This document shows positions 1,532 through 60,314 of a stretch of DNA of 62,259 nucleotides, piece by piece. Source of the stretch: a virus. Numbering within the stretch: the stretch's first letter is position 1; each line of letters begins with the position of its first letter. Below the pieces are notes generated by a model, which saw only the letters and a program-made list of their open reading frames with translations, did no database searches and was not told the origin of the DNA. The stretch is taken from IMG/VR virus record IMGVR_UViG_3300046003_005119, positions 1 to 62,259 of that record; one strand, written 5' to 3'. A program made the position numbers and the translations under genes.

Positions 1532-2151
1532 CCCTGACCATCATAACCGAATGGAGCAGGATGACCAGTTCCATGGACATCTGTGGGCGTGTTGCTTGCC
1601 GCGCCCTGCCCTACAGCACAAGCAGCGGCCCCATAGGGCAGGGCAGGCGCGGGGCTTGCGGGGCTTGCGGGTGCTAGGGTAGCGCCCAAGGCTTGCGCCC
1701 CTCCAGCGGCCTTCCCAGCGCTCCGGATTAGGGCATCCAACAGCTGAATCGCAAATTCAAGTTGCTCGCGTCGCTGCCAATCAGACAGAATGCAGCAGAA
1801 CTGGTATTCAAGATCGGGTAGGTTGTTCGCCTTCTTGAAGCGAGCGTTCAATTCGTCGATGTTTTCGGGAGCTTCGATGGACAGCGCGTAGACTGCATCG
1901 AAGTTGACGATCATCTTCTGAACGTAGGTTTTCGCCTTCAGCAAGTCCTGAAGGCCGTTCTTCTTCCACCAGCGCGAAACATACTTCGTCGCGCATCCCT
2001 CGAGATAGCCGAGGCCGACATCAATAGCCCAGTCCCAATGCTGATACTCAGCCTGATAGTGTTCTCCACCCTCTTGGGCAACGAACACTGACTTCCGACA
2101 CATGCACATATTCGTGTCGTGGCCACAGGTGTCACAGTTGGTGTTTCCCAT
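1528..2151 (-). CDS. DUF3310 (SaV-like) protein with Ala/Pro-rich tail
   Basis: The N-terminus has a CDTCGHDTNMCMC cysteine cluster that could bind zinc. Residues about 28-75 match the DUF3310 pattern: GGEHYQAEYQHWDWAIDVGLGYLEGCATKYVSRW, followed by KxGLQDLLKAKTYVQKMI. The function of the family is not settled; it is common in phage early regions. I chose ATG at 2151 with GGGAG seven bases upstream, overlapping the HD gene's TGA. The last 60 residues are an Ala/Gly/Pro-rich tail lacking Asp and Glu that coincides with a GA/TC-free DNA tract (1582-1702). Confidence 0.8.
   Translation of the reverse strand: MGNTNCDTCGHDTNMCMCRKSVFVAQEGGEHYQAEYQHWDWAIDVGLGYLEGCATKYVSRWWKKNGLQDLLKAKTYVQKMIVNFDAVYALSIEAPENIDELNARFKKANNLPDLEYQFCCILSDWQRREQLEFAIQLLDALIRSAGKAAGGAQALGATLAPASPASPAPALPYGAAACAVGQGAASNTPTDVHGTGHPAPFGYDGQG
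1582..1702. other. GA/TC-free tract, 121 bp
   Basis: Between the TC at 1580-1581 and the TC at 1702-1703 no GA or TC dinucleotide occurs on either strand. The stretch is GC-rich, with words such as gggcagggcaggcgcgggg, unlike the surrounding sequence. It encodes the Ala/Pro/Gly tail of the DUF3310 protein. Chance is a poor explanation, and two further tracts of the same kind exist at 23.9 and 37.7 kb. Confidence 0.85.
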
Positions 2152-2702: not shown

Positions 2703-3671
2703 TCACTTGATCCTCCGGATGATATATTCACGACAGGCTTTCTGCCAGTCAGTTGCGGCGCATTCTCCAATGGCTTTGAGAGCCATCTCGTGATCCTTGG
2801 CTTTGTGCCAGTTCCACGCTCGAAGCATCGGCAGCGCCACTCGCTTGAAGAACTTGTCGCGATAGCCGATGACTTCTCCATGCTGAACAAACATCTCGAG
2901 ATCTGCCATCCAGTCCTCGATCGGACCGTTCACCATCGGATACGGCGAAACTTCGCCGCTTTCGTATTCAGCTGAAGCAATCGGAAGAGACAAGAGACTG
3001 GAGTGCTTCTCGAAGGTCGACATATATGCGTGGAAGTTTGTTGAGATCTGTTCATAGATGCCGACCTCAACACCGATCCACGCCGCGACGACTTCCTGCA
3101 TCATCGAGAAGTGAACAGCGTTCGCACCGTATGCACCCCAGATCATGTCGTTGGAACGGTTGAAGACATACATGTCCAGCCGACCGTCGACGATACGGAA
3201 GTTCACCATCTGGTTGCAAGGAAAGTCCTTGCCTTCACGACCGAGATCAGAAGCAGGGTCCCACATTCCCATCGATACACGACGGTCATCCGGGTTCTCC
3301 TTCAGAAGCATGGCACAAGTCGCCAACTGATCGACACCGAACCACTCGCGCCAGCGATGACCGTAGGCTCCATGGAAGGTGACACCATCATCGCTGTAGT
3401 TCGCGATCGATCCGTTGAATCGACTGATCCACTCAACATCGTTGCGACCAGCAATCATCCAGAGGCCTTCCATAAAGTGGAAGAACGGATTTGCATCCCT
3501 TTCAGGGAAGAACATCACTCGCTCTTTGGGCTTCTTGTAGACTGTAGTCACAGGAGTCCTGAACACCCTGACAGGACCGTTGCGGCTGTCGCGAAGAATG
3601 CCTTCGTCACGAACAGTGTGAAGCCCAAGGAGAAGGGCTTCAGAGACGTTGCGGACAGTGATCACTCTCAT
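2703..3671 (-). CDS. Thymidylate synthase-fold enzyme, probable dUMP hydroxymethylase
   Basis: A 322-residue thymidylate-synthase-fold protein. The catalytic Cys is about residue 152 in DFPCNQMVNF; the His that follows the Cys in canonical ThyA (PCH) is Asn here, as in many phage hydroxymethylases. FNRSNDMIWGAYGAN matches the dUMP-binding loop, and its Asn (about 184) corresponds to the Asn that selects uracil over cytosine in ThyA. It therefore probably acts on dUMP using methylene-tetrahydrofolate, making hmdUMP or dTMP. It sits between an HD nucleotidase and a glycosyltransferase, two genes downstream of a 5-hmdU-kinase-type gene, which favours hydroxymethylation. The start overlaps the upstream stop (TAATG). 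Confidence 0.85.
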   Translation of the reverse strand: MRVITVRNVSEALLLGLHTVRDEGILRDSRNGPVRVFRTPVTTVYKKPKERVMFFPERDANPFFHFMEGLWMIAGRNDVEWISRFNGSIANYSDDGVTFHGAYGHRWREWFGVDQLATCAMLLKENPDDRRVSMGMWDPASDLGREGKDFPCNQMVNFRIVDGRLDMYVFNRSNDMIWGAYGANAVHFSMMQEVVAAWIGVEVGIYEQISTNFHAYMSTFEKHSSLLSLPIASAEYESGEVSPYPMVNGPIEDWMADLEMFVQHGEVIGYRDKFFKRVALPMLRAWNWHKAKDHEMALKAIGECAATDWQKACREYIIRRIK

Positions 3672-4954
3672 TATGCGAGAACTCCAAAGTGGTTGAACAT
3701 GAGATCCGAGTATTTCTCTCGGATGGATGGATCGTCAGTTCCACGAATCGTGTCGATGGAACCGAAGGCGAGATCGATGACTCGCTGAGCGACGATCTCA
3801 CGGTCGAACATCGGCAGAAGCTGAAGCGCAGCCTCGCGATAATTCGCGGCGAGTTGGTGGCTCATTTCGCCAACCTCGAGCACGAGATTCGCGTATTGCT
3901 CCGGATCGATATGACCATCAGGGATATCCCAGTAGTGAACACCAGCCTCGAAGATCGAATCACCCATTCCCATCGGTCTCGCAATGGGAATAGCACCATG
4001 GATCATAGCATCAACGACAACGCGGTTCCAATGACCGCCGACAGCGGCATATTTGCGCGACCAAGAAGGATCGACAAGAGCGCGGGCGCTTCCGAGCATC
4101 TCTTCCACTTTGGGCGTGTTCCAGTAGCCCTCATGAACCATACCATTCTCAAGAGCAACTTCCCAGAAGCGACCGCCCTGACCACGGCTATCAATCGGAT
4201 GGTAATACTCAGGCTTGCACTTGTCCTCGCTCGTCATGTATTGATACTCGATGCCGAGACCTGCGACATGCCGATATTCGTCGTCACGCTTGGGCGGCAT
4301 GTAGGCGATTGCCTCGATCAACTCGTGAGCATGTTTCCACGCCTTGAAGGTCTGCATGTTGACGAAGCCACGCTTGCGTTCTGCCCAAGAAGCGACCTTC
4401 CGCACTGGGTTGAACTGAGGATTCACGACCAGCGCCCGAGGTGTCGTCAGAAAGTTGGCTCCGTTCAGAGCGCAGTCATGAACGCAGGCAATACCAGAAA
4501 GCTGATCTTGGATCGCCAGAATATGCGGCGCTCCTGACTTTACGTTTCCGTCGTGAACGAAAGCAATCTGCTTGATCGATCTCGGCAGATCATACAGATT
4601 GGTCCATTCATGGTTTCCGAGGTTATCCTTGTTTTTGCTCGGAACAGGAACCGTCCAGATGATAAGGTCATAATCGACCATAATCTGTTTCGCGGTTGCC
4701 AGCGCAGCCGATCCCTTGTAGGCAATCCGGTCATTCCGACGGAAGTTCCAGCCCTTGCCTTGGTCGTGTGGGATTCCACTTGGGCCGACGATCCAGTCAC
4801 CAGTCTTGTTTTGTTCGTGAGCCTTAATGGCATAGACGAACTGTTTGAGATGGACTGTGTGTCCAAGATCTTTCAATCCACCGATCAACTGCTCAGTGTG
4901 ATTGATGATTCCACCAAGGTCCATGACCTGATGCAATGCAACGAGAATTCGCAT
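3671..4954 (-). CDS. GT-B fold glycosyltransferase
   Basis: A 427-residue protein with a GT4-like layout: an N-terminal Rossmann half starting MRILVALHQVMDLGGIINHTE (substrate loop), and a C-terminal half with LVDPSWSRKYAAVGGHWNRVVVDAMIHGAIPIA, resembling the donor-binding E/D-x7-E region. No signal peptide. It could glucosylate a hydroxymethylated base, since it is flanked by the hydroxymethylase-like gene and the 5-hmdU-kinase-type gene; a surface-glycan role is the alternative. ATG at 4954 follows GGGGG, and a promoter at 4981-5009 precedes it. Confidence 0.8.
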   Translation of the reverse strand: MRILVALHQVMDLGGIINHTEQLIGGLKDLGHTVHLKQFVYAIKAHEQNKTGDWIVGPSGIPHDQGKGWNFRRNDRIAYKGSAALATAKQIMVDYDLIIWTVPVPSKNKDNLGNHEWTNLYDLPRSIKQIAFVHDGNVKSGAPHILAIQDQLSGIACVHDCALNGANFLTTPRALVVNPQFNPVRKVASWAERKRGFVNMQTFKAWKHAHELIEAIAYMPPKRDDEYRHVAGLGIEYQYMTSEDKCKPEYYHPIDSRGQGGRFWEVALENGMVHEGYWNTPKVEEMLGSARALVDPSWSRKYAAVGGHWNRVVVDAMIHGAIPIARPMGMGDSIFEAGVHYWDIPDGHIDPEQYANLVLEVGEMSHQLAANYREAALQLLPMFDREIVAQRVIDLAFGSIDTIRGTDDPSIREKYSDLMFNHFGVLA

Positions 4955-5012: not shown

Positions 5013-5201
5013 CTACTTATCTCTGCTTGCACTACTTTTGATTGCGAAGATAAGCATGATTAAAGGTGTGAAGCCTGAGAATAGGAACATAAAGAACGCT
5101 ACACTCAGGCTCAGATGTTTCTTCTTGATATCATACCAGAAGAGACTCAGCATGAACCACATTGACCACCAGACAATGAGCCAGAAGAGCCAGTTAGGCA
5201 T
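5013..5201 (-). CDS. Small two-helix membrane protein (62 aa)
   Basis: Begins MPNWLFWLIVWWSMWFMLSLF and has a second hydrophobic helix near SVAFFMFLFSGFTPLIMLIFA, with a basic loop (KKKH) between. A longer frame exists upstream, but ATG at 5201 overlaps the stop of the preceding gene by 8 bp and gives a clean membrane hairpin. Function unknown; its place within the modification cluster may be incidental. Confidence 0.6.
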   Translation of the reverse strand: MPNWLFWLIVWWSMWFMLSLFWYDIKKKHLSLSVAFFMFLFSGFTPLIMLIFAIKSSASRDK

Positions 5202-6084
5202 GATACTTACTTCTGGGTTTCCCCTGACCAAGACGAACTCGTTCATACTTATCGAACTCGCAGAACGCGAATTGGATATCAGTGGGAACAAGTCTCCCGT
5301 CGTGAGTCCACAGCATCTCTTGCCATTCGCCGATCTTCCGAATTATGTCCATGGATCGTTGTTCAGTGAGAGGAGTTGCAGAGTCATCGCCCAAGAGACG
5401 AGCAGCACCACGACGAGCTCCAGGACCGATAGGAGTCCAGCTATCCCAGTCGACGGGATAAGAGAACGTCCCGTCCTTGGAATGCTCGAACGTCTCGTTC
5501 CAGAAACCAGTGTAGGTCGTGTCGAGCAGAACTTCCTTGGTCATGAAACCAGTTCCACCGAAGCCGCCGATCATACGCATCCGATCAGAGACTTCTTCCC
5601 AGCTTTGGGTCTCTTCAGCAATCTTCACGAGTTGCGGTGTCTTCGCGTGAAGATCCTTGAGAAAGTAGTCGACAACCACTTCCTGCTTCGGAGCGGAGAT
5701 ACCTTGGTTTGTGATGACATATGCTCCGGTAAACACTCGTTCGCGCGAAGCCAGACGTGATTCTGCCAAGTCCTTAATGCCATCAAAGTCGAACGTGTCA
5801 TACTGTTGCCATCCGATCGCTTGTGCAAATTCCCAAGTGCCGAAGTATCTGTATAGCGCACAGTTCATGAGGATGGTGCGCTTGTCATCGTTGAAGTTCG
5901 GCCCATAGAAGAGCCGACGAAGCTGATCGCTCGTGCGATCGTGATGTCTCCTCACGTTTGTGAATTTGTAAGTCCGTAGGATCTCGTCATCAGTCCACGG
6001 AAATGAAAAACCCGCCTCCTTCCGGAGGCGGATCTCTTCGCGTTCGTTGAGATAATCGTAGAACGCTTGCGCCCTGAGGCCCAT
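5194..6084 (-). CDS. 5-hmdU DNA kinase helical-domain protein / aGPT-PPlase-like (thymine hypermodification)
   Basis: A 296-residue protein. Its N-terminal part reads FYDYLNEREEIRLRKEAG, then PWTDDEILRTYKFTNVRRHHD, the signature of the family shared by 5-hydroxymethyl-dU DNA kinase helical domains and alpha-glutamyl/putrescinyl-thymidine pyrophosphorylases (Pfam HMUDK_hel). In characterised phages such proteins act on 5-hmdU in DNA and attach amino acids or polyamines. I see no P-loop, so a transferase-type role is as likely as a kinase. GPGARRGAARLLGDD is another family-like motif near residue 220. With the TS-fold enzyme and glycosyltransferase it defines a likely base-hypermodification module. 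The family recognition is from memory and should be confirmed. Confidence 0.8.
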   Translation of the reverse strand: MGLRAQAFYDYLNEREEIRLRKEAGFSFPWTDDEILRTYKFTNVRRHHDRTSDQLRRLFYGPNFNDDKRTILMNCALYRYFGTWEFAQAIGWQQYDTFDFDGIKDLAESRLASRERVFTGAYVITNQGISAPKQEVVVDYFLKDLHAKTPQLVKIAEETQSWEEVSDRMRMIGGFGGTGFMTKEVLLDTTYTGFWNETFEHSKDGTFSYPVDWDSWTPIGPGARRGAARLLGDDSATPLTEQRSMDIIRKIGEWQEMLWTHDGRLVPTDIQFAFCEFDKYERVRLGQGKPRSKYHA

Positions 6085-11064: not shown

Positions 11065-11141
11065 TGGCGATCCTGGGAGGAATCGAACCCCCGACCCGCC
11101 GCTTAGAAGGCGGCTGCTCTATCCGGCTGAGCTACAGAATC
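11065..11141 (-). tRNA. tRNA-Arg (anticodon TCT)
   Basis: A full cloverleaf: acceptor GATTCTG pairs with CAGGATC, the anticodon stem GCCGC/GCGGC holds loop CTTCTAA (anticodon TCT, reads AGA/AGG), the T arm contains TTCGATT, and discriminator G is followed by an encoded CCA. Its 5' end overlaps the stop codon of the gene at 11140 by two bases. Phage tRNAs usually compensate for codons rare in the host. Confidence 0.95.
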
Positions 11142-17844: not shown

Positions 17845-20358
17845 TCAATACTGAACTCGGGCGACTAGCCCAGAGATGCTCGGAGTTACGTTATTCGTTT
17901 CGCTTTGAAGTTCGATCTTGAACTTGAACGCTCGACCATAGAAGTCTCCAGCCTTGAATATCTGCCAAGCAGACCAAGTCGGAGTTCCAGCTGGATCTTG
18001 TTCAGTGACGCTGATGTAGGTGATGACATCAGTGTCAGTGAACTGCGCGGCTCCAGTCCAATCGTCCCAGTTTCCTGGAAATGAATCCCAGTTTCCTGGA
18101 ATATCATCCCACAGACCAGCGGCTGTGTCGAGACGAACTACGTTCATGTCGATTCTGGATCTAACTCTTCTGACCGCTCCAGTGTCGATATAGGTCGTGA
18201 ATTCATACTCACCAGTTGAAGGCCCAGAGGAGAATGTCGTCAACCTGAGTTGGCTGGAAGTGACCGACGTATTAGTCTTCGTTCCAGAGAACGTCGGAGA
18301 CTGAGTAGAGGTCAGGTTGTTCGAGAACGTTTCGAGCGCTGCTTCACGAACGACAACCGACGAATAGTTGATCGAAGCGTTTCCAAGTTTGTCATACGCC
18401 TTGATCGTATACGTTCCAGGTCTAGTCGGGACAGTGACCGAACTCGCTGGGCGACTTACTCTCGTCACAGAACCAGTCGAGTTCGCGTATGTGGCACCAG
18501 TCTCTTCAAGAGAGTGACGAATTCTGTAGTGCGATAGATCCAGATCTGAAACAGGATCCCACTCTAGAGAGATCACTCCACCATTCAAGTTCGCTCTGAA
18601 ATTCGAGACATCTTCGGGTGCAGCGATGAGACCGACACTTGCGTAATCGAGATAATACGTCCAGTCACCTTGAACTCCAAAGTGATTGAACGATCTGGCC
18701 CTGAAGTCGTGATCCACGCTATCAGGATTCGGCAATTCATAGATACCGACGTCACCGGTTCCAGCGACTGACCACACAGAATCTGTCGATTTCTTATACT
18801 GAACTTCAACATAATCGATCATACTGGAATCGCTCGCAGTGATCAAGATATAGATGAAGTCAATGATGTTTTCGTTCTGGATTCGCACTTCGCTGCTGAG
18901 CGAAATTCCAACTGGCTCCACATAATACGGATTCGGCAGAGTCGTGTTGTTCATCTCGAACACAGAGCCAGAGACGTCTTGAAACACCTGCTCGGAGATC
19001 TCTCTCAGTGTCAACGGAAACTGAATATCAAGTTCTTCAGTGACGGACATGTTCCACGAGGTGACCTCGAAAGCCTTGGACACCCAACCGAAGCGATCAA
19101 GCGAGAGGCTGATGATATCTCCAACCTGAACCTTCATAGCTTTGAGACCGAAACTCGCAGAGATTGACAGTTGCTCTCTGTTTCTGAAAAGAGCGATCTT
19201 GGCAATTCTCTGTGCAGTCTTCGAGGAATCTGTGAACGGAAGATCATAGTCTGTAGTATTCTCGAGACCATTGTCAGCAGCTAGAAACGCCGCGTCCGTC
19301 ACTCTTGGGTAATCAGTATCCTGCCAATCAGTCTCAGGACCCTTGAAAGTTCCCTTGATGACGTTGAAGTTATCACGCCTGGAATTGCGTGTGGAGATTG
19401 AGAGCTGAGATCTTACATCTCCCTCATCGAATGAAATAGCCGGAGCGACCCACTTGGCAGCTTTCATTCTCCACTTGCCTTGTGAATACCATAGAATTCC
19501 ACCCATGGAAGTCAGCAGGCTCGATAGGATAGACCCAGGAGCGACTGAAGTCAGAAAGGATCCAGAGCAGGTATAGCGGCTTTCAGCAGACACAGTCTCA
19601 TCAGCCACATCAGCAGCGATTGTGACAAGAGCATCATCAATTCGAACAGAAGCTTGTGACAGACCGAAAGGTGCGGTGAGATAATCTCTGATGCAGAGAG
19701 CCGAGTTGTTACTCCACGCAGTCAGACCACTTCTTGGGTCATAGACCTTGCGTCCCTTGATTTTCGCGGAGACAGTCGGAACTCCGTTGGCGAAAGCATT
19801 CTGATCATAAGTGAACCGCGCGTAGACATACGCAATTCCTCTCAACCTATGGTTCGCTGTCCAGAATGCTGACTCAGAAGTGAGATCTGTGTCAGCAGTT
19901 TGTGAGTCAGTCCCAAGATAGGTCTTGATCCGAACTTTACCAGAGTATCTCGCTGGAGAGGTCACGTTTCCAGAACCATCTAGAGTGACTATCTCTTCAT
20001 TGAGATAGATCGCTGTGTAGGAGTCGATCTCATGTCCAGCAAAGCCGATCACTCTGTGAAGAATCTTGTTGTTCGTTCCAGTGCTTTCATCATAGATACG
20101 AACCCCGCCAACTCTCGTTTCACCATAGATGATTTGATGATCAAGACTTGATCCTGATACTCCGCTGATGGTGTATCCACCAGTTGAGTTTGACGGTTTC
20201 GGAGAGAGTGCGTTCAGAGCCGCACCCATAGCAGTCGAAACTAGGAAGTGCGTCAGGAGAGTTCCTGCACCTCCGACGAGAAATCCACCAAGAAGAACTC
20301 CACCCGAGAGCGCGGTTGTTCCTGCAGAAATCGCTCCCATGACTGCTGAAATTGCCAT
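17845..20358 (-). CDS. Tail tip / host-specificity protein (J-like)
   Basis: An 837-residue protein at the distal tail position. The N-terminus has Gly/Ala hydrophobic stretches (VLLGGFLVGGAGTLLTHFLV) as in J-like or GTA tip proteins. Then come DHQIIYGETRVGGVRIY and LHRVIGFAGHEID, typical of this family. Residues about 590-690 look like a fibronectin-type domain (VISLEWDPVSDLDLSHYRIRH). The C-terminal part is a beta-rich domain with Trp repeats (WDDIPGNWDSFPGNWDDW). Confidence 0.85.
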   Translation of the reverse strand: MAISAVMGAISAGTTALSGGVLLGGFLVGGAGTLLTHFLVSTAMGAALNALSPKPSNSTGGYTISGVSGSSLDHQIIYGETRVGGVRIYDESTGTNNKILHRVIGFAGHEIDSYTAIYLNEEIVTLDGSGNVTSPARYSGKVRIKTYLGTDSQTADTDLTSESAFWTANHRLRGIAYVYARFTYDQNAFANGVPTVSAKIKGRKVYDPRSGLTAWSNNSALCIRDYLTAPFGLSQASVRIDDALVTIAADVADETVSAESRYTCSGSFLTSVAPGSILSSLLTSMGGILWYSQGKWRMKAAKWVAPAISFDEGDVRSQLSISTRNSRRDNFNVIKGTFKGPETDWQDTDYPRVTDAAFLAADNGLENTTDYDLPFTDSSKTAQRIAKIALFRNREQLSISASFGLKAMKVQVGDIISLSLDRFGWVSKAFEVTSWNMSVTEELDIQFPLTLREISEQVFQDVSGSVFEMNNTTLPNPYYVEPVGISLSSEVRIQNENIIDFIYILITASDSSMIDYVEVQYKKSTDSVWSVAGTGDVGIYELPNPDSVDHDFRARSFNHFGVQGDWTYYLDYASVGLIAAPEDVSNFRANLNGGVISLEWDPVSDLDLSHYRIRHSLEETGATYANSTGSVTRVSRPASSVTVPTRPGTYTIKAYDKLGNASINYSSVVVREAALETFSNNLTSTQSPTFSGTKTNTSVTSSQLRLTTFSSGPSTGEYEFTTYIDTGAVRRVRSRIDMNVVRLDTAAGLWDDIPGNWDSFPGNWDDWTGAAQFTDTDVITYISVTEQDPAGTPTWSAWQIFKAGDFYGRAFKFKIELQSETNNVTPSISGLVARVQY

Positions 20359-21986: not shown

Positions 21987-24900
21987 TATCCACCAAACGC
22001 ATTCTTCATCTGTCCACCTCTTCTGCGAGCGTCGATGATTGCGCTCTTGGTCTTATCAACGATAGCCGGAACAGCTTTCATGATCTCAGAACGAATTGCA
22101 GTTACGTCGACGCCAGACCCACTGACATGAATGTCATTGTTCACGATGATAGTGTCGCCACCAGACCCAGAGGCCTGAACTCCAAGCTTCCCGTTCGCAC
22201 CTCTAGTGAGAGGCATGATCGCCTCTGGGCCAGCTTCACCCATGATGCCGAGGCCAGTGTTGGTCTTGAACATAGTCGCTCCGGAAACGACGCCACCATT
22301 GGCGAACTTCCGCAGCTGAGAACCTTGGCTCCAGACACCACCATCAGCTTGTTTAGTGAACGCCCCAGAAATAAGACCAATGAGACCAGTTCCAGTTCCA
22401 GTGGAGGCGTTGAAAGAACCAACCAGCCTCTGCACAACGAGAACTCGATAAAGTTCCTTGATGATCTCGTAAGCCATCTTCTTGAAAGCTTCTCCCATCG
22501 TCTGAGTTCCCTCGACGATTGACATGAAGGCTTCTTCCATGGAAGATTTGATTTTGTCAGAAATCGATTGCATCTGAGCGATTGCTTCTTTCTTCGCGTT
22601 CAGAGCCTCAATCTCCTTAGTGACATTATCGATCTCCAGCTGAGAGTATTTATCACGATCAGCACTCAGTGCAGTCTCAACCTGTCTTTGGGCTTCAGAC
22701 AACCCAAGGAGACGAGTTTCAAGCGCAATCTGTTCGCGGAGTTTCGCGAGAGCATCTTCGGATGCACCACCTCCACCACCTGCTCCATCAGGAAGAAGTG
22801 AATCCTGAAAGTCCTTGAGATCCTTCGCGTCCTTAGCCTTGTTGAAGAGAGCCAGGAAGCCCTCTTTAGCTTTCGCGACGAAGCCACTGTTCGCAAATCT
22901 GCTGAGAGCATTTGAAATGCCAGTTGTGATTCCTCGCAGAGCGCCGAAGGAAGAACTCAAGACAGCCAGTAGCTCTCTTGCTTTATCGATTGCAGGCTGA
23001 ATCATAGCAGCCAACATCTTGATCTTTCCTCCAAGAGTGTCAGTCGCTCCGCCAGCAGCAGCGATGACTCTCTCTAGAGCCTGAACTCTGGACAGCTGGA
23101 TAACCATCTGATCAGAAACGCTTTCAGCGATCTTGAGACTTTTGATAGTCGTCAAGAGATTTTCCATCTCAGTTCTTTGTCTCTGCTTCAGGACCTCGAT
23201 TGAATTTTCTCCGTATATTACAGACAGCCTGAGGATCTCAGCTTTCTCTCTCATCGGAGTGAGAATTTCCATCGCCTTCTGGTATTCAGCATCACTTTCA
23301 GCACGAGTTTGTCCCATGAGCTGAAGTTGCTGTCCCCACGTTCCGACCATGAACTGTCTCAGCTCACGCATTCTGAACATCTGTTCATTCTGACGGATCA
23401 GTTCTTGGACAATCATCTTTTCTTGGTTCAGGGCGAGCTGAGCTTTCATCGCGAGATCTGTGGCAGAAGCTTGAAGGCTCACTATCTCAGATTCAGTCGA
23501 TCCAGACCCAAGACCAGAGGAAGGATCGAACGTATAAGGATTCGCAGCCGCGGACTCTACATTCGCCTGTGCGACGTCTCTGATCGATGCCGCCAGAGCT
23601 CTGTTCTCTGCCGAGAGAGCTTTTGCCGTAGAGAGAGCCTTTGCTCCTCCTCCTGAGGCATACTCAGCCATCGAATCGTTCAGTTGCTCTTGGACTGATT
23701 TCAATTCCTCAGTTGCATCAGTCTGCAAAGACATGTAGAGCTGAACCGCAAGAAGACCAGTCAGAAGAATTCCGATAGGATTCGCCATGATCGTAGCGAA
23801 CAGAGCCATGAATGCGCCACGAACAGCACCAATAGCGACAGCAACTCCAGGAAGGACAGCGCGGAGCCGGACGAACCACCCTAGCGCCGCTGCCTGTGCA
23901 GCCGCTAGGCGCGTGGTTGCAACGGCAAGCCCCGTAGCCTGCGCCGTAGCCTGTGCAGCCGCTAGGCGCGCAGCCTGTGCGGCCTGCGCGCCAAATGCAG
24001 CCTGTGCAGCCCGTGCAGCCGCTAGGCGCGCAGCCTGTGCTGTCTCAACACCCTCAACAATGGAAAGTTTCTGAGAAAGATTGATCAAATTCTGCTTCGC
24101 GATCGCAAGGTTCACGAATTGACCAGTCTGAGCGTTTCTGGCAACGCCATTTCTGATCACATACTGTGACTCGAGAACTTGCTGCTGCAAGAGCAGTTTC
24201 TTCTGGGCGATGAGAGCAAGATTCTGCTGAAGTTCAGCCTGACGACTCGCGTATGCTGCGAGAGTTGTTCTGGTCTCTATGTTAGCTGCGGTTACGACAG
24301 CAGCAGATTTTGCGACGACCGCTGTCCGTATAGCGATCAGCCTCTGCAGAACTTCAGTCTGCTTTATTTGGGCAGCTTTCAATCCTGCAACGTAAGCCAT
24401 GACAGCGTGAATAGCTTTTCCTGCGAATACACCAGCCAGAGTCACGCCGACAGCAGTCGCGGTGACCATGATTCCTTTCAGGTTATCAGCGATACTGATG
24501 ATCGCCATAGAAACCTTTTCAGAGAAACCGGTTGCATCATCGAATGCGTCCAGGAGGGCCAAGAAGGAATCTCGAACAATACCAAGAGACTGGCCAATCG
24601 TCGGAACGAGTTTCGCGAAGTCCTTATCAATTCCAGCGGCAGAGTTTCTGAAAGCTGCGAGGATTTGATCAGCCGTGATCTTTCCTTCAGTTCCAAGCTG
24701 ACGGAGTTCACCACGGGTCACACCGAATTGCTTCGCGATGATGTCCGCAACCAGAGGAAGCTGTTCCAGAATTGAACGAAGTTCATCGCCGCCCAAGCGG
24801 TTTGACGAGATACCTTGCCCAAGCTGAATGAGCGCAGCGTTCGCTTCTCGAGCGTTCGCACCAGATAGAACAGCAGCCTTGCTCACAGACTCAGTAAATC

Positions 24901-28509: not shown

Positions 28510-28895
28510 CGACGGACTCCAACAAATGCGAGAACGTTGACGTCAGCGGGGCAGAGAACTTGCAGTCCAAGAATGTTCCAATCAGAGCCATCACGCAGGA
28601 TCGTGAACTGACGAAGATCTGTTTGTCCTTGGTGCAGAATGACAATCTGTTCGCTGAATTGCAGCAGATCAACGAATTCTGTTCCCTGACCCAAGGAGGT
28701 GATGCCAAACTGTCGAACAGTATTCGGAGGAACGAATACCCCATCAGTGACGAACGTCGTCTCGCCAACGACTGGACCCTTCCAAGGCTTGTTCACATCG
28801 GCCGGAGTCTCTGACTTTCGAACGAAAGTGATCGATCTTCCATTCGAAGTTATGAGCCTTGAAGCTGTCGCTGCGAGTTTGGTGTAATCGACCAT
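28506..28895 (-). CDS. Head closure / head-tail joining protein
   Basis: 129 residues. RLITSNGRSITFVRKSE and VGETTFVTDGVFVPPNTV match the small beta-rich head-closure family found after the first connector. Single-base overlap with the next connector gene. Confidence 0.7.
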   Translation of the reverse strand: MVDYTKLAATASRLITSNGRSITFVRKSETPADVNKPWKGPVVGETTFVTDGVFVPPNTVRQFGITSLGQGTEFVDLLQFSEQIVILHQGQTDLRQFTILRDGSDWNILGLQVLCPADVNVLAFVGVRR

Positions 28896-31373: not shown

Positions 31374-32420
31374 TTATGCTTCGCGAGTCACCAGACGGGC
31401 GAACTTGATCATCTTGCGCTCCGGATAGACACGGTTCCAGGAAGTCGCATCATCCAGATCGCTGTTCGCCGGACCACCGTCGGGAACACCAGCCATCACG
31501 AAGGCGTGACCAGCGGGGTGCATGGACCACATGACGCGCGAATACAGCACGTCCTGACCGCCGCCATTGCCGCCTCCGGGCTTGCGATCGACTTCGGTCG
31601 CCACCGGAGGAGAGCCGACGCCGAGCTGAGTCGCGCCGGAGCCGAACAACCAAGTGTCATAGACGGAGCCCGTCCGAGGCAGACCGTCATCAACGATGAC
31701 TTCACGGCCCAAGAAGGTGGGAATCTGGATCTCGCCGCGAGCGTCGGGGATGAAGTCGATCAGGTTGTTTTTCTGCATCCGGTTGTAAACGACCGAGTGG
31801 ACAGCGACAGCAACCAGATCTTCCTGCGAATCGCCCATCGTTTGGGCGGTATCCAGGAAGGCTTCAGCCGAGAAGTTCGTCACACCATCGACGAAGGAAG
31901 CGCCGGAGATGTTGTTCGCATAGTCGCCCGAATCGTTCGCAGCGTTGTCAGCGATGACGCCGTTCCAGGTCGCGATGAAAGCGGTCTGCAGACGACGAAC
32001 CCAATAGGCCGAGACGCGGGAAGCGATCGACTGCATCGGATCAACACCAGCGAGAATCGCAGCGAGGTCGGTGGACGACCACGAGTTGTTCCGGTTGAGG
32101 CGAACAGCGATTTCTTTCAGAGTGCCGGTTTTCAGCGGATTCGGCGGACGAACAACGCCGGAGGGCAGCGAGGCGTCAGCGTCGGCGAACGGAACCGAGG
32201 TATCGGACGAGACGCGATCAGCGTCGTTATCCAGATCGCGGAACGACGGAACTTGGAAGGTCAAGCCACCGCCGCCGAGCAGGGTGTCCAAAGATTCCGA
32301 GCGAGCGAGCAGACCCGACTGAACCAGTCGCGACTTCTCTTCGGTCAGTTGCTGCATATAGGGGGTGAAGATCTCGGGAACGATAACGTCGCTCACCCGA
32401 GTCGCGGGACCTGCGGCCAT
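31374..32420 (-). CDS. Major capsid protein
   Basis: 348 residues, starting MAAGPATRVSDVIVPEIFTPYMQQ. FQVPSFRDLDNDADRVSSD, LAGVDPMQSIASRVSAYWVRRLQ and AVHSVVYNRMQKNNLIDFIPDARGE are typical of a phage coat-protein family with HK97 fold. AAAGGA precedes ATG 32420. A ten-codon ORF (MGSLTFLKRQ) with its own GGAG site ends just upstream and could be a leader peptide. Confidence 0.85.
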   Translation of the reverse strand: MAAGPATRVSDVIVPEIFTPYMQQLTEEKSRLVQSGLLARSESLDTLLGGGGLTFQVPSFRDLDNDADRVSSDTSVPFADADASLPSGVVRPPNPLKTGTLKEIAVRLNRNNSWSSTDLAAILAGVDPMQSIASRVSAYWVRRLQTAFIATWNGVIADNAANDSGDYANNISGASFVDGVTNFSAEAFLDTAQTMGDSQEDLVAVAVHSVVYNRMQKNNLIDFIPDARGEIQIPTFLGREVIVDDGLPRTGSVYDTWLFGSGATQLGVGSPPVATEVDRKPGGGNGGGQDVLYSRVMWSMHPAGHAFVMAGVPDGGPANSDLDDATSWNRVYPERKMIKFARLVTREA

Positions 32421-35366: not shown

Positions 35367-36890
35367 TCAATAATGTCCAGAAGTTGAGCCAGTTCCGCCC
35401 ATATTCGAGATATGACGAACGAAATATCTCGTTTCGTCAGCGATGTGATCTTCGGCATCCGTGTTCACGTCGTCCTGATCTTTCTCATCTCTGGGCAAAA
35501 CTGGCACCGTTTCGATGAATGACAGACATTCGTCGAAGATGAACATTCCAGGCTGTTCACGAGGATACATGAGAAGGACATCCTCTTTAGTCGGATGTTT
35601 TCTCATCGTCGGATGAGCATTTTTCAGCCTCTGACGCATCTGGTTCCAGCCTGTCACACGCGATCCAGGACGTTTATCAGCCGGAGCCCACTGAATTCCA
35701 GGATACTTGTTTCCATCATCCAATCTGACTTTGACTTTCATGTCTGTCGCGATGCAGTTGCCGTTCTCAGCGGCGAAAATCTGCGAGTCAGCGACTCCGC
35801 CCTTCACTCGACACCAGTCTTCACCTGGAATTCTCCAGTTCCACGCCAGCTCTTTCTCGACAATTCCAGCCGCGATGTCAGTCGCGAGCATTCGGAGACC
35901 CTCGTTGGGCTTTCCTGTCGAGCCATACCATTCTTTCACACGGAAAGAGTCTCCCTTGATCGTCGAGCGCCATGATCCATCACGAAGCTGAACGTCTTCT
36001 CCATTCGAAATGGCCCACCAGCCCACAGAGAAAGGCTTCGATTCTCCCCAGTCGAAGGAGCGGATGATACGCCAATTCAACGGTATCTCAAAGTTTGAGA
36101 TTACATTAAATCGAGGTTCCCATACATCGTCGAACATACCGCCAGCGACGATGTCCCATGACCCTTCGAGCCATGCTTTCTTCTCCGCCGCGTTTCTCGC
36201 TGACGCTGCAATCTTCTGTTTGTATTCAGGATCGGCCTCGAGCAGAGCCGTGTTCTCGTCGATATGCGAGTGGATGCTCAGGCGAGGAGGCTCGGAGTTC
36301 CCTTCTTCATCTTTCAGATCGCGACGGACGATCATGTTCATGCTGTTGGGCTTGAACCTGTGTTTCACCCAGTTGTGACCGGGACCATATGGGTTCGTCG
36401 TCGCGCGAACCATACGAGGCATTCCCTTTGTCGACGAACGACAACACGAGAACATCCTCTTGTAGCCCTCATCATTCGCCCAGTTGCACAACTCTTCCCA
36501 ACCAATCCAGGGATATTCGTGACCGTGATAGTTCCAATAGTCGTCAGCTTTCATGAACTGGCGAAGCAGAAGCTGTTCTCCTCCAGGAAACGTCCAGACA
36601 TGCTCGGAGTTGTTGAATTTCGCTTCCGGCCAGATCTGAGGGATCCACTTTTTCGTTTTCGAGATAATATCCGTCAATTGTTTATACGTTTGACGGAATA
36701 GAATTCCCTTCCAGCCAGCCCCGTATCCCTTTCCGACGTGCATACAGAAGCTCATAATCAATGAGTCTGTCTTGCCGCCTCCGCGAGTTCCTTCGAACAA
36801 GACTTCGAAGATTGGGTGAGCTGCGAGGAAGGCCTCTTGGCTTCCTCGCATGGGTCGCCAAATCACGTTCTTGGGGAATTGCATACTCAT
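35367..36890 (-). CDS. terL: Terminase large subunit
   Basis: 507 residues. Walker A is FEGTRGGGKTDS (about residues 32-43), Walker B is YPWIGWEEL, and the C-motif region is RATTNPYGPGHNW. The nuclease domain starts at RSFDWGESKPF, with further acidic residues at VADSQIFA and DAEDHIADETRY. It packages DNA into the prohead. ATG 36890 gives an ATGA overlap with the upstream peptidase-like gene. Confidence 0.93.
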   Translation of the reverse strand: MSMQFPKNVIWRPMRGSQEAFLAAHPIFEVLFEGTRGGGKTDSLIMSFCMHVGKGYGAGWKGILFRQTYKQLTDIISKTKKWIPQIWPEAKFNNSEHVWTFPGGEQLLLRQFMKADDYWNYHGHEYPWIGWEELCNWANDEGYKRMFSCCRSSTKGMPRMVRATTNPYGPGHNWVKHRFKPNSMNMIVRRDLKDEEGNSEPPRLSIHSHIDENTALLEADPEYKQKIAASARNAAEKKAWLEGSWDIVAGGMFDDVWEPRFNVISNFEIPLNWRIIRSFDWGESKPFSVGWWAISNGEDVQLRDGSWRSTIKGDSFRVKEWYGSTGKPNEGLRMLATDIAAGIVEKELAWNWRIPGEDWCRVKGGVADSQIFAAENGNCIATDMKVKVRLDDGNKYPGIQWAPADKRPGSRVTGWNQMRQRLKNAHPTMRKHPTKEDVLLMYPREQPGMFIFDECLSFIETVPVLPRDEKDQDDVNTDAEDHIADETRYFVRHISNMGGTGSTSGHY

Positions 36891-37503: not shown

Positions 37504-37740
37504 ATATTCTACCTCCGGTCGGAGCCGACACACATAGTGTCTATATGAACCCAGAAGGACACGCGGGCGCACCGTGGATCACGAAAATTCAGTTACACTC
37601 ATTCTCGCTGCTCACGCAAGTGCAGCTTCTCATGAGTCTCGTGAGGCTCGTCGATTCGTTTCGAATTTTGGTTTCTTGTTTCTCGGTTCTTGATCTTCGT
37701 AGGATTTCGAATGATGTGGGTGAAGGGGCGGGGAACGGGA
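37504..37740. promoter_or_regulatory. Leader region of the packaging/structural operon
   Basis: No gene is seen. The part next to 37503 should hold the late promoter; GTTCATATAGAC around 37535-37546 is a possible -10 region, but no convincing -35 is visible. The composition here is normal (many GA and TC) and switches abruptly at 37741. Confidence 0.35.
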
Positions 37741-37751
37741 CCGCCAGCCAT

Positions 37752-37778
37752 ACGCCCCACGCGCAAGCCGTGCGTGGG
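37752..37778 (-). terminator. Hairpin after the GA-free gene
   Basis: GCCCCACGC and GCGTGGGGC form a 9-bp stem downstream of the GA/TC-free gene on the minus strand. There is no T tract, which would be hard to combine with the GA/TC ban and terminators of the TTCTTC kind used elsewhere in this genome. Position approximate. Confidence 0.5.
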
Positions 37779-37832
37779 GCGGGGTGGTAGCGGTTGCCTG
37801 CCCCGCAACGGGGGCAGGCGGTTGCTTTGGCG

Positions 37833-38315
37833 CTATGCCTTGGCAGGCGCAGGCGCGGGCGCGGCAGCGGTTGCCACAGGCGCGGCAGCGGCAGCGGCAG
37901 CGGTTGCCACAGGCACAAGCCAAGCCTGCGCGGCGGCCCATTGCGGCATGTTGTGGCGCTGCCAGCCCCCATTTGGCGGGGCAAGCGTGGGGCTTGCGGC
38001 TGCACTGGCCACCAGCGCGGCGCGGTATTGCGCCAAGGTAAAGCCGTTGGGCTGCACCTTGGCAAGCGCCTGTGCCACTTGGCAGGCAAAAGCGCGGTGG
38101 CCACGCTGCCCCACAGGCCAGCCAGCGCTTGCGGCTGCACTGTAGGGCATATAGGTGTAAAGTGCCGCGCCAATGGCCACAGCAACGGGCGCGGCGGTTG
38201 CGGTTGCAACGGGCGCGGCGGGCGCGGGCGCGGTTGCGGTTGCGGTTGCAACGGGCGCGGGGGCAGTAGCCTTGCCAGCGGTTGCGGTTGCGGTGTTTTT
38301 GTTAGCTTGTGCCAT
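37833..38315 (-). CDS. Ala-rich protein without Asp or Glu, encoded in the GA/TC-free tract (160 aa)
   Basis: The N-terminal 45 residues and C-terminal 25 residues are low complexity (ATATA, APAPV, PVATA). Residues about 48-132 look folded: ALYTYMPYSAAASAGWPVGQ, then GHRAFACQVAQALAKVQPNG, FTLAQYRAALV and NMPQWAAAQAWL. No Asp or Glu occurs, because every GAN codon is forbidden by the DNA. The protein is basic, so DNA or RNA binding is plausible. AAAGG precedes the ATG, and a promoter lies at 38370-38399. I recognise no family. Confidence 0.75.
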   Translation of the reverse strand: MAQANKNTATATAGKATAPAPVATATATAPAPAAPVATATAAPVAVAIGAALYTYMPYSAAASAGWPVGQRGHRAFACQVAQALAKVQPNGFTLAQYRAALVASAAASPTLAPPNGGWQRHNMPQWAAAQAWLVPVATAAAAAAAPVATAAAPAPAPAKA

Positions 38316-38369
38316 TGTGGTAGCCTTTGGTTACAGGGTAGCAGCACCATTGCCGCTATGCCCTGCCCC

Positions 38370-38399
38370 TATATAGCGCCATAGCGCGGCAAAAGCCAA
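38370..38399 (-). promoter_or_regulatory. Promoter of the GA-free gene (TTGGCT-18-TATATA)
   Basis: Minus-strand TTGGCT (38394-38399) and TATATA (38370-38375) with an 18-base spacer, 55 bases before the ATG. The -35 touches the first GTAAC repeat at 38400, so a protein bound to the array could activate or repress it. Confidence 0.6.
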
Positions 38400-38524
38400 G
38401 TAACATGTTGTTACAGATTGTAACAATTTGTTACCGGAAATGCAGTAACGTTTTGTTGCAGGCTGTAACAATTTGTTACCGGAAATGCAGTAACGTTTTG
38501 TTACAGCCTGTAACAATTTGTTAC
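38400..38524. repeat. Array of six GTAAC-N5-GTTAC palindromic elements
   Basis: Copies start at 38400, 38420, 38445, 38465, 38490 and 38510, spaced 20, 25, 20, 25 and 20 bp. Three are the perfect dyad GTAACAATTTGTTAC, the others are GTAACATGTTGTTAC, GTAACGTTTTGTTGC and GTAACGTTTTGTTAC. Seen as direct repeats the unit is 45 bp. Two helical turns then two and a half suggest cooperative binding of a dimeric protein: an operator array, replication iterons or a packaging/partition site. Confidence 0.9.
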
Positions 38525-38693
38525 CGGAGACGAGAGACCGAACGAGAGACCTACCGACGAAGATGAAGATGACGAGTGAGATCTCCTCTGTCGGTTCTGT
38601 CGTATCGGTTCATGACTGTCGGTTCGATGATGAAGAAGATGATGAGTGTCGAGCCCAAGAAGAAAGAGCCTCAATCGGCTCTTTCTTGTCGGT
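38525..38693. repeat. GA/TC-saturated spacer with terminator
   Basis: Directly beyond the repeat array the composition flips to GA and TC in almost every position (gacgaagatgaagatgacga, gatgatgaagaagatgatg). Two copies of ctgtcggttc also occur. No gene is visible. Confidence 0.7.
38660..38687 (-). terminator. Rho-independent terminator
   Basis: AAGAAAGAGCC and GGCTCTTTCTT form a perfect 11-bp stem with a 6-base loop, just after the stop of gene 38694-38882. TTCTT follows. Confidence 0.8.
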
Positions 38694-40603: not shown

Positions 40604-41257
40604 TCAGAAGGGATCGTCGTCCTCTGTCGGCTCGTTGGAGAGCCCAAGAGGAGTAGGAGTGACATCCTTCGCTTGAGAGAATCGCTTCTCCCAATCATCG
40701 ATACTCGTCATTTCAGCTGGAGCGACGAGAACACCGCCAGAGTGATTGACAGCGATTTCCTGCTTGTCACGGTATCCGGCGTCGTGCTTCTTCAATTCAA
40801 GTTCGATCAGTCGTATCGGGTAGACTGTCTCTCTGGAGACGAGGCCTCCATTGCGATCGAAACTCTCCTTGACTGTCCCGTTGAAGACGAGGTCTTGATG
40901 GTGACCGATCAGTTTGTCCTTGTATGCAGTTTCGGCGAGAAGCATCGCTTCAGCGAAGTCTTCATCTTCCTCCAACGCTTTCCGGACTGTCTGAGGTGAG
41001 ACACCGGCGGCTGCTGCGCTCTCTCCCATCCGTCCCCATTTCATGAATTCGTTGAGGAATCGGCCCTTCGCAGCTTCGTCAAAACGATTGCGAGCCATGC
41101 GAACGACTGTCCGCCATTCACCGGTTTCGGGATCCTGTATATCCATCGCCTCGACCCTCGATCTACGAGACAACAGAGAGCGAGGAGCCTGACGAGCGCG
41201 GAAAGCATCATCATCATATCGGTCTCTGTAGGACTTCGGGTCTTCATCGTCGCTCAT
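40604..41257 (-). CDS. Probable terminase small subunit
   Basis: 217 residues. RFLNEFMKWGRMGESAAAAGVSPQTVRKAL is a helix-turn-helix of the kind seen in TerS and related DNA-binding proteins, followed by a conserved helix (EAMLLAETAYKDKLIGHHQD) and an acidic tail (EPTEDDDPF). It would recognise the packaging site. It is separated from terL by 3.7 kb that contain the GA/TC-free tract and repeat array. ATG 41257 has GGAG upstream; the longer frame is less likely. Confidence 0.7.
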   Translation of the reverse strand: MSDDEDPKSYRDRYDDDAFRARQAPRSLLSRRSRVEAMDIQDPETGEWRTVVRMARNRFDEAAKGRFLNEFMKWGRMGESAAAAGVSPQTVRKALEEDEDFAEAMLLAETAYKDKLIGHHQDLVFNGTVKESFDRNGGLVSRETVYPIRLIELELKKHDAGYRDKQEIAVNHSGGVLVAPAEMTSIDDWEKRFSQAKDVTPTPLGLSNEPTEDDDPF

Positions 41258-42848: not shown

Positions 42849-43129
42849 GCTGCTTTTTCCTTTGTTGCTGTGACAAGAACACGGACCTCTTGCCAATTTT
42901 CAATCCAAACCTGAACGATCTCATACCGACGATCGTGGCGGTTCGGTCCGTTGAACTGCCAGCCGTTCTTCAGCTCATTCGCAACTTCGAGCTGAGATTC
43001 GGCGGAGTGCATGTCCTTGGGCGTCCTCACGCTGTGATACTTCGATCCAGCGGTGATCGTGTTCAGCAGGTAACGACGCCCGTTGGTGCGAACTTCCCAG
43101 AGCTCAGTGTGTTTGATTCGACGTGTCAT
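42845..43129 (-). CDS. Small early protein (94 aa)
   Basis: MTRRIKHTELWEVRTNGRRY... with a KNGWQFNGPNRHDRRYEIVQ segment. ATGA overlaps on both sides mark one polycistron with genes 42537 to 43642. Unknown function. Confidence 0.6.
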   Translation of the reverse strand: MTRRIKHTELWEVRTNGRRYLLNTITAGSKYHSVRTPKDMHSAESQLEVANELKNGWQFNGPNRHDRRYEIVQVWIENWQEVRVLVTATKEKAA

Positions 43130-44651: not shown

Positions 44652-44936
44652 TCAGCCTGTCGCCTTTTCCCAGTGCTCATAGTTGAACATCTCAGGGATA
44701 TAGTTCTCAAGGATGAGAATCGTCTCAACTCGCTGGTGCTTCCCTCTGTCTGGGCGAAACAGGACGCCGACGCTCAACTTCAGTTCACCCTCCATGAGAG
44801 GTTGAGAGAGCTTCGCTCCTGGGATATGGTCACCGAGGTCAGGGCCGACATAGATTCCCATGCACCTGAAAGGCTTGTGCCACTCAGGAGGATTGGGATT
44901 CCAGAAACCGACTCGCAATCCGCTTGTCACTCTCAT
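44652..44936 (-). CDS. Hypothetical protein (94 aa)
   Basis: MRVTSGLRVGFWNPNPPEWH, then MGIYVGPDLGDHIPGAKLSQ. Start chosen for the ATGA overlap with gene 44933-45463. No family recognised. Confidence 0.6.
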   Translation of the reverse strand: MRVTSGLRVGFWNPNPPEWHKPFRCMGIYVGPDLGDHIPGAKLSQPLMEGELKLSVGVLFRPDRGKHQRVETILILENYIPEMFNYEHWEKATG

Positions 44937-45463
44937 TGCTTTTGGACCCATGATGGTGCGCCTCTTCTTGTCCAGGTCGCGGGTCGCTTGTCAGTCTTCC
45001 ATCTCGCCAACAGATATTCTTGGTAGGATACTGGAACAGGAAGCCATGTGAAGTCAAGACCGAGACCATCGTTTCTCGCCGAATTTTGAAATGGTAACAG
45101 ATCGCCAGACGGGAGACAATCATAGAATCTGTGGATATACTGGGTTCGAACGCTGCTGCTGTGAAAGGAGTCGAAGCGATAGGTCCATTCGTGTCCTAGG
45201 GCATAGGAATGTTTGATAGTCCAGTAGAAGTTGCGTTTCGAACCACGAACCCAGACAGCGCAGGGATGATTTGCGTGTGTGAGTTTGCAAATCATGCCTT
45301 CACCGACGTGATCATCGATAGGATCAATGAAGTATCCGTTCCAATGAAAATGCAGAGCAGATGACAGAAGCTGGTTCGTCTCCATCAGCATCTTGCCGAG
45401 CCTCTTATCGTCAAGAGCCTCGGCGCACTCCTTTGGGCATGTCGACGTGATGAACAGGTTCAT
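44933..45463 (-). CDS. Conserved phage protein, Pyr_excise-like (176 aa)
   Basis: MNLFITSTCPKECAEALDDKRLGKMLMETN... and ANHPCAVWVRGSKRNFYWTIKHSYALGHEWTYRF follow the pattern of the pyrimidine-dimer DNA glycosylase-like family common in phages. Catalytic activity of the phage members is not established to my knowledge. The residues ALDDKR, NHPC and EWTYRF are the conserved blocks. Confidence 0.7.
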   Translation of the reverse strand: MNLFITSTCPKECAEALDDKRLGKMLMETNQLLSSALHFHWNGYFIDPIDDHVGEGMICKLTHANHPCAVWVRGSKRNFYWTIKHSYALGHEWTYRFDSFHSSSVRTQYIHRFYDCLPSGDLLPFQNSARNDGLGLDFTWLPVPVSYQEYLLARWKTDKRPATWTRRGAPSWVQKQ

Positions 45464-50306: not shown

Positions 50307-50522
50307 TCATTTCATATCACAGCTCTTGAACCGTCCGTCGAAGAACTGCTCGCTTGGGCGAATCCACACAGGGCCGCTTCCATCATACGATTGGTAGACA
50401 ACCATCGGTTTCAAGCTGTTCTCGAACAGCCCATGATGGAGGATCTTGTAGTGACCTCCAGTCTTGGTGTGAACCCACACGCTCGCGGGTTTTTCGTGGG
50501 ACGACGGGTCTTTGATGGTCAT
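50307..50522 (-). CDS. DUF1653-type protein (71 aa)
   Basis: VWVHTKTGGHYKILHHGLFENSLKPMVVYQSYDGSGPVWIRPSEQFFDG matches the DUF1653 pattern (HxKTGxxY...VVY...WVRP..F). ATGA overlap upstream. Molecular role unknown. Confidence 0.75.
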   Translation of the reverse strand: MTIKDPSSHEKPASVWVHTKTGGHYKILHHGLFENSLKPMVVYQSYDGSGPVWIRPSEQFFDGRFKSCDMK

Positions 50523-59636: not shown

Positions 59637-60314
59637 CTAGCCTCTGACATAGAGGCCTGTGCTGATCTTCTGGAAGGTGTTCAGCTTGGGCTTCTTCACA
59701 TGAGTGAAACCCTGCTCGATCAGGGAATCGTCAATCATGTTCATGCTTTCTTCCCAGTCAGGCCGGTGAAAGTGGAACTCGATAGCGATCGTCTCAACGC
59801 TATCAGGCAGATGATCCCAGTTCAGTGAATACTCGCCTCCCTCGCAGTCGCACTTGATGAACTGAACTCCTGTCCGCAGGAGTTCCTGGAAATGGATAAC
59901 AGGAACTTCCACGGAGGCGCGGCCCTTGAACGGTTCAACCGAATTCGTAGCAGAGAACGTCTTGCCCAAGTAAAGAGGGATGCACAAGTCCGGGAAATCG
60001 TGGTCGACGACAGCGGCCATGTGAAGTTCAGTATCACCACGAATGTTCTTCCGAAGAACCTCCTCTGCTCGCGGATCAGGTTCGACGGAGATAATGCTGT
60101 CAGGCGGATAGTTCCGGCAGATGAACACGTTGAAAAAGCCGCAATGAGCCCCAAAGTCCAGGACACGTTTTCCCTTGGCTCGCTCGGCGACTTTTCCATA
60201 GTCACGCTTCTGCTCGGTGAAGACATACGGGTCTCCAGCACCAAGATAGTAGACTTGGTGAACGTCATGATATTGCATGGTGATGTCCTGAATTTGCAGT
60301 TGGCTTTTTACCAT
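59637..60314 (-). CDS. FkbM-family SAM methyltransferase
   Basis: 225 residues. GKRVLDFGAHCGFFNVFICR is the SAM-binding motif I, ISVEPDP is motif II, and VQFIKCDCEGGEYSLN is the FkbM-type motif. It probably O-methylates a small molecule, sugar or modified base. With a glycosyltransferase in the genome, methylation of a sugar on DNA is possible but unproven. Start 60314 is uncertain. Confidence 0.8.
   Translation of the reverse strand: MVKSQLQIQDITMQYHDVHQVYYLGAGDPYVFTEQKRDYGKVAERAKGKRVLDFGAHCGFFNVFICRNYPPDSIISVEPDPRAEEVLRKNIRGDTELHMAAVVDHDFPDLCIPLYLGKTFSATNSVEPFKGRASVEVPVIHFQELLRTGVQFIKCDCEGGEYSLNWDHLPDSVETIAIEFHFHRPDWEESMNMIDDSLIEQGFTHVKKPKLNTFQKISTGLYVRG

Follow-up and report, generated by a model that had tools for sequence, protein, structure and literature searches.

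In the DNA of phage M6, roughly 30% of T is replaced with 5-(2-aminoethyl)uridine (PMC11946847). Restriction-resistant sites in the DNA of M6, ViI, and phiW-14 are marked by TG or TC, from which the authors of that work inferred the preference of the kinase (PMC6449724), and SP8 DNA was resistant at TG or TC sites after kinase treatment (PMC7653180). In vitro, the output of E. coli RNA polymerase on a 5hmU template was about 350% of that on plain DNA, and kinase treatment lowered output to 37% of plain DNA, equal to 10% of the 5hmU template (PMC6457204). Bulkier modifications typically block the bacterial polymerase (PMC11550810). A full-text search of the open-access literature found no published locus stripped of a modification context, in agreement with an earlier reading of the DNA described here, made from its letters alone (the sequence-only reading), which knew of no described element of such a kind.

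The window analysed here is the whole 62,259-nucleotide stretch of the viral record IMGVR_UViG_3300046003_005119 (Table 1). Its terminase, probable hydroxymethylase, and kinase are related to those of YuA/M6-like phages (Mesyanzhinovviridae), to which it is assigned by sequence similarity. The kinase was 29% identical to M6 gp055 and matched phrog_2396 (E=3e-47), and the best PDB relative of the thymidylate-synthase-fold enzyme was a CMP 5-hydroxymethylase. Flanking the kinase were a conserved glycosyltransferase-like gene (weak match) and unknown genes, with no recognised transferase of the M6/ViI pathway among them. The 5hmdU kinase was encoded in all 10 near-complete contigs that carry the gene described below as gene A (the window, G001, G005, G008, G021, G023, G025, G026, G027, and G028); the remaining gene A contigs are fragmentary, and absence of the kinase there therefore says nothing. 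TC context accounted for 26–37% of T in the clade, close to the roughly 30% replacement in M6 (PMC11946847). A DNA methyltransferase was considered as the writer and rejected, with none found among the scanned ORFs, which included part of the small ones; one FkbM-type methyltransferase was found at 59637–60278. The window also holds a pyrimidine-dimer DNA glycosylase-like gene (44933–45463; PF03013, E=2e-7) and a tRNA gene on the minus strand (11068–11141).

Table 1. Features of the window discussed in the text (positions in the 62,259-nucleotide stretch)
Feature	Position	Strand	Evidence or remark
Secondary 122-bp GA/TC-free stretch, Ala/Pro-rich tail of DUF3310 gene	1581..1702	-	Recurs in relatives
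Thymidylate-synthase-fold enzyme, probable dUMP hydroxymethylase	2703..3671	-	PF00303; 53% identical to M6 enzyme
Glycosyltransferase-like gene between the two modification genes	3671..4954	-	Conserved in clade; weak Pfam match, below its cut-off
5-hmdU DNA kinase, presumed writer with the avoided target context	5194..6084	-	PF18723, E=1.8e-36
Secondary 170-bp GA/TC-free stretch, Ala-rich part of tape-measure gene	23874..24043	-	Recurs in several relatives
Terminase large subunit	35367..36890	-	55–57% identical to YuA, Bordetella CN1, and others
GA/TC-free tract	37740..38416	no strand	Dinucleotide count
G+C-rich hairpins 3' of gene A, unit end	37741..37819	-	-63.8 kcal/mol, z -2.7
Gene A, encoding 160 aa without Asp or Glu	37833..38315	-	Homologues in 23 IMG/VR loci
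Promoter-like element TTGGCT-N18-TATATA, upstream of gene A	38370..38399	-	Assigned by eye; similar element in relatives
45-bp direct repeat in three copies, each carrying palindromic GTAAC/GTTAC half-sites, operator- or iteron-like	38399..38533	no strand	Abut gene A promoter, directly upstream
Terminase small subunit	40604..41257	-	Neighbours gene A, on the upstream side, in all relatives that show both

Across 677 consecutive bases of the window neither GA nor TC occurs, and all 14 remaining dinucleotides do; the limits of the tract are a GA at 37739–37740 and a GA at 38416–38417. The sequence-only reading had described a tract of 676 bp with the other fourteen dinucleotides present, 75–85 GA/TC expected, sharp boundaries, and GA/TC-rich flanks, and the recount bore this out: the expected number was about 73 from the base composition of the tract or about 120 from the genome density (0.177 per base), making the earlier estimate a fair one, and GA/TC density was ordinary in the flanks (about 20 per 100 bp on each side) and zero within. 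The next-longest GA/TC gaps in the window were 170 bp (tape-measure gene) and 122 bp (DUF3310 gene), and the longest gap for any other dinucleotide was at most 465 bp, a maximum that belonged to the rare TA. Genome-wide, GA/TC was over-represented in the window (rho 1.42). With the threshold for a long gap set at an expected 0.01 per genome, an excess of such gaps was found consistently in the clade for GA/TC alone among all ten strand-symmetric dinucleotides.

To condition on the encoded protein, the 160-codon gene A was recoded at random 2000 times with the same protein and phage codon usage. The recoded genes contained 33 GA/TC on average (minimum 17), and the probability of zero, computed exactly, was 5e-21; the corresponding probabilities for two relatives with a total ban were 3e-20 and 4e-18. 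Gene A was the sole strong gene-wide GA/TC outlier in the window, G001, G005, G023, G025, and G026, with an O/E of 0–0.44 vs at least 0.77 for every other gene of these six clade genomes, and the larger gene A values stemmed from ORF calls that overran the tract. Other genes, structural ones included, showed no GA/TC depletion in the gene-wide recoding calculation, and the same calculation on M6 found no gene resembling the gene A outlier. Chance and protein composition were thus ruled out as the cause by the recoding nulls, and a chimeric or faulty assembly was ruled out because contigs assembled from different metagenomes share the tract. That low-complexity, Ala/Pro-rich composition or a mutational bias gave the absence without any selection on GA/TC is highly improbable: parts of the tract do encode Ala/Thr/Pro repeats, and both of the shorter, secondary stretches are rich in Ala, but the protein-conditioned null rejects this account, the conserved non-repetitive core, the spacer, and the hairpins are also GA/TC-free, and GA/TC are numerous in homologues whose repeats are similar.

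The locus is the extreme GA/TC-free case and not the sole one, because short secondary stretches occur elsewhere in the genomes, all of them far weaker than the main tract. Clade counterparts of the DUF3310 and tape-measure stretches were seen in G001 (31530–31646), G005 (3585–3659), and G026 (42987–43128 and 18327–18465). Some noncoding elements are GA/TC-free as well, above all in G026, which contains two G+C-rich, largely noncoding, GA/TC-free elements (28728–28873 and 50318–50439, loci L114 and L115) with hairpin-like GGCC repeats that are apparently dispersed. Stretches free of other dinucleotides were also observed: a 207-bp AA/TT-free, low-complexity stretch rich in ACAG/TATAC in a more distant relative (L023, 1640–1847), and a 200-bp CC/GG-free, A+T-rich, apparently intergenic stretch in a distant relative (L029, 7250–7450).

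The tract corresponds to a predicted compact transcription unit consisting of a promoter, gene A, and hairpins, to which some relatives add gene B, encoding a hydrophobic, predicted membrane peptide of about 33–64 aa. The promoter-like element avoids the GA of the consensus TTGACA -35 box, and a consensus promoter scan found no site at this element. The hairpins after gene A are possibly a terminator, though without a T run. For gene A, no homologues were found in a phage collection or in bacterial/cellular genomes at the sensitivity used, no convincing domain was found in Pfam, PHROGs, PDB, or PADLOC, and a fold search with a weak structure model (pTM 0.48) returned no match. No known RNA was found in the tract. 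The ban on GA/TC acts on the DNA itself, a conclusion supported by its coverage of the promoter-like element, 5' leader/spacer, hairpins, and codon junctions alike; the sequence-only reading had argued that the property was selected in the DNA, and the recoding probability given the protein upholds it.

Relatives were found through IMG/VR searches for terminase, gene A, and kinase; among these YuA/M6-like phages, which form a clade, gene A has about 20 distinct homologues, collected in different metagenomes. Where the sequence-only reading had named ordinary GA/TC counts in relatives as evidence that would count against it, the ban was found to recur at the homologous locus with a strength that varied: the depletion ratio of the gene A coding region relative to each contig's own background spanned 0 to 0.63. 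The ratio was 0.00 in the window, G005, G024, G025, G026, L005, and L077, 0.02–0.22 in a further set, and 0.26–0.63 in the rest, and several homologues tolerated many GA/TC. The earlier description of a complete ban therefore holds for the window and some relatives; it is not absolute in all relatives, and the short secondary stretches lie elsewhere. Total bans were scattered on the gene A tree, next to less strict homologues (G025 0.00 and G023 0.11; G005 0.00 and L010 0.04; L005 0.00 and G001 0.14). As near-zero counts appear in separate parts of the tree, the ban is tuned and not merely inherited. The relaxed homologues contain Asp/Glu, up to six (in L069), which indicates that the protein can bear acidic residues and that the DNA ban shapes the protein. 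Among strongly and partly depleted homologues, residual sites were rarer after A/T than after C/G (ATC 0.15, TTC 0.19, CTC 0.27, and GTC 0.36 of the genome rate), a hint that the presumed writer may prefer WTC. A consistent strand asymmetry of residual sites (template-strand test) was also considered; it was suggestive in one subclade and opposite in others, and was dropped.

The extent of the ban in relatives followed the unit. The best-scoring depleted segment began upstream of gene A, mostly at or above the promoter-like element (TTGGCT ... TATAGG/TATATA). Its 3' end lay 20–100 bp past gene B in seven strongly depleted phages that have this gene, and 90–120 bp past gene A in total-ban phages without it. 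In six strongly depleted phages, GA/TC were also absent from the stretch that links the promoter-like element to the start codon, with G026 an exception in that its coding region is fully banned, yet three GA/TC occur in the 90 bp before the start codon. The rough coincidence of the ban with the transcribed unit would fit selection at the RNA level, by which the transcript must lack GA and UC (e.g., to escape an RNase). We regard this as improbable, since the ban extends from the promoter-like element to the start codon in the six phages above, since a double-stranded DNA target would lead one to expect a dinucleotide and its reverse complement to be banned together, and since residual sites show no consistent strand bias. 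Hardly less improbable is a need for bare DNA in some other transaction, for instance to initiate replication or to let a phage regulator bind the adjacent 45-bp repeats. In the window, three such palindromic direct repeats adjoin the promoter, and relatives share a possible palindrome upstream, but GA occurs within the repeats, most of whose length is outside the ban, and a binding site needs no ban through the coding regions of gene A and gene B.

The position of gene A in the genome bears on the main rival explanation, in which the tract is a site of packaging or nuclease access: the terminase or another phage nuclease would be blocked by hypermodified T and cut only the bare tract, where packaging would start. 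It is the main rival because the small-terminase gene constantly neighbours gene A, which lay 0.6–2.3 kb downstream of it in every genome showing both, even with the large-subunit gene about 6 kb away. The ban also covers both strands, P1 offers a known case of pac cleavage controlled by modification (PMC6449724), and 7 of 27 contigs (L066, L068, L071, L076, L077, L072, and L006) ended within or close to gene A, against about 3 expected, an excess that is weak and may reflect low-complexity sequence or physical DNA ends. Against packaging, the ban keeps to the bounds of a conserved transcription unit that encodes protein, 0.5–1 kb is long for a pac site, and M6, a phage of the same broad kind, has no such tract. 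On balance we consider a packaging role unlikely, although less so than the RNA-level and other-transaction accounts.

The explanation that we favour, while giving it only about an even chance, is that the tract forms a transcription unit from which hypermodified T in TC context is excluded. The phage would purge the kinase's target TC from both strands of one operon to form a sequence-coded bare island, the expression of which would be insulated from, or timed by, genome-wide modification. In the proposed mechanism, the phage would swap T for 5-hydroxymethyl-U, the 5hmdU DNA kinase would phosphorylate hmU that is followed by C, and additional enzymes would place a bulky group on the phosphorylated hmU. 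With no TC on either strand, the A(-B) unit would never be phosphorylated and would therefore stay plain hmU DNA, which bacterial RNA polymerase would read well; a fully hypermodified genome could in this way still yield transcripts of the bare unit, either directly after injection or late, as infection ends. The sequence-only reading had taken GA/TC to be the target context of a phage modification and the locus to be kept unmodified. The DNA-level ban, its recurrence in relatives, the 5hmdU kinase, and the dUMP-hydroxymethylase-like enzyme, together with the TG/TC context published for such kinases, lend this partial support; we infer that the DNA of the clade is probably hypermodified and that TC may be the sole context read by its kinase. 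By the same reasoning, the DNA of the tract would be bare and transcription the presumptive reason for its exemption.

This transcription reading has weak points: the clade's kinase is only 29% identical to that of M6, TG, the second reported kinase context, is not avoided, several gene A homologues tolerate many GA/TC, three GA/TC lie just upstream of the fully banned coding region of G026, other genes are undepleted, and M6 and other phages manage without such a unit. No GA/TC tract was found in M6, phiW-14 (50 kb examined), phiW8-1, or Simon, nor was a tract lacking any other dinucleotide or pair found in M6, phiW8-1, or 50 kb of phiW-14 (Simon was scanned with single dinucleotides). As these kinase-encoding phages lack the tract, the exemption is therefore not a general need of T-hypermodified phages, and as other genes are transcribed yet undepleted, it must serve a special moment or product. 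If the transcription reading is true, the sequence of the locus exempts it from the hypermodification that the phage itself carries out, implying that a bulky modified base imposes a cost on some DNA transaction, which phages avoid by rewriting the locus. The effect of hypermodified T on phage gene expression would become directly testable, the recognition context of the kinase (TC) would be predictable from genomes alone, and a scan for locally banned dinucleotides would offer a simple route to the target contexts of unknown phage modifications.

Several known systems share features with the locus. Base J (glucosyl-hmU) is a modified T that affects transcription, namely its termination in kinetoplastids (PMC7055916); unlike the tract, it is a eukaryotic chromatin mark and involves no dinucleotide-stripped gene. 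Restriction-site avoidance by phages likewise selects against short DNA words, but there the target word is depleted across the genome, whereas in the window GA/TC is over-represented genome-wide and banned at one locus. Methylation-controlled pac cleavage in P1 is similar in that the modification state at one site may direct a phage enzyme; however, P1 needs a modified GATC within a short site, and the window's clade has a transcription unit of 0.6–1 kb without the presumed target. Closest are the 5hmdU-kinase phages M6, ViI, and phiW-14, with which the window shares a dUMP-hydroxymethylase-like enzyme and a 5hmdU DNA kinase, the published context being TG/TC. M6 and 50 kb of phiW-14 are without a stripped locus, whereas the window's clade has one stripped operon.
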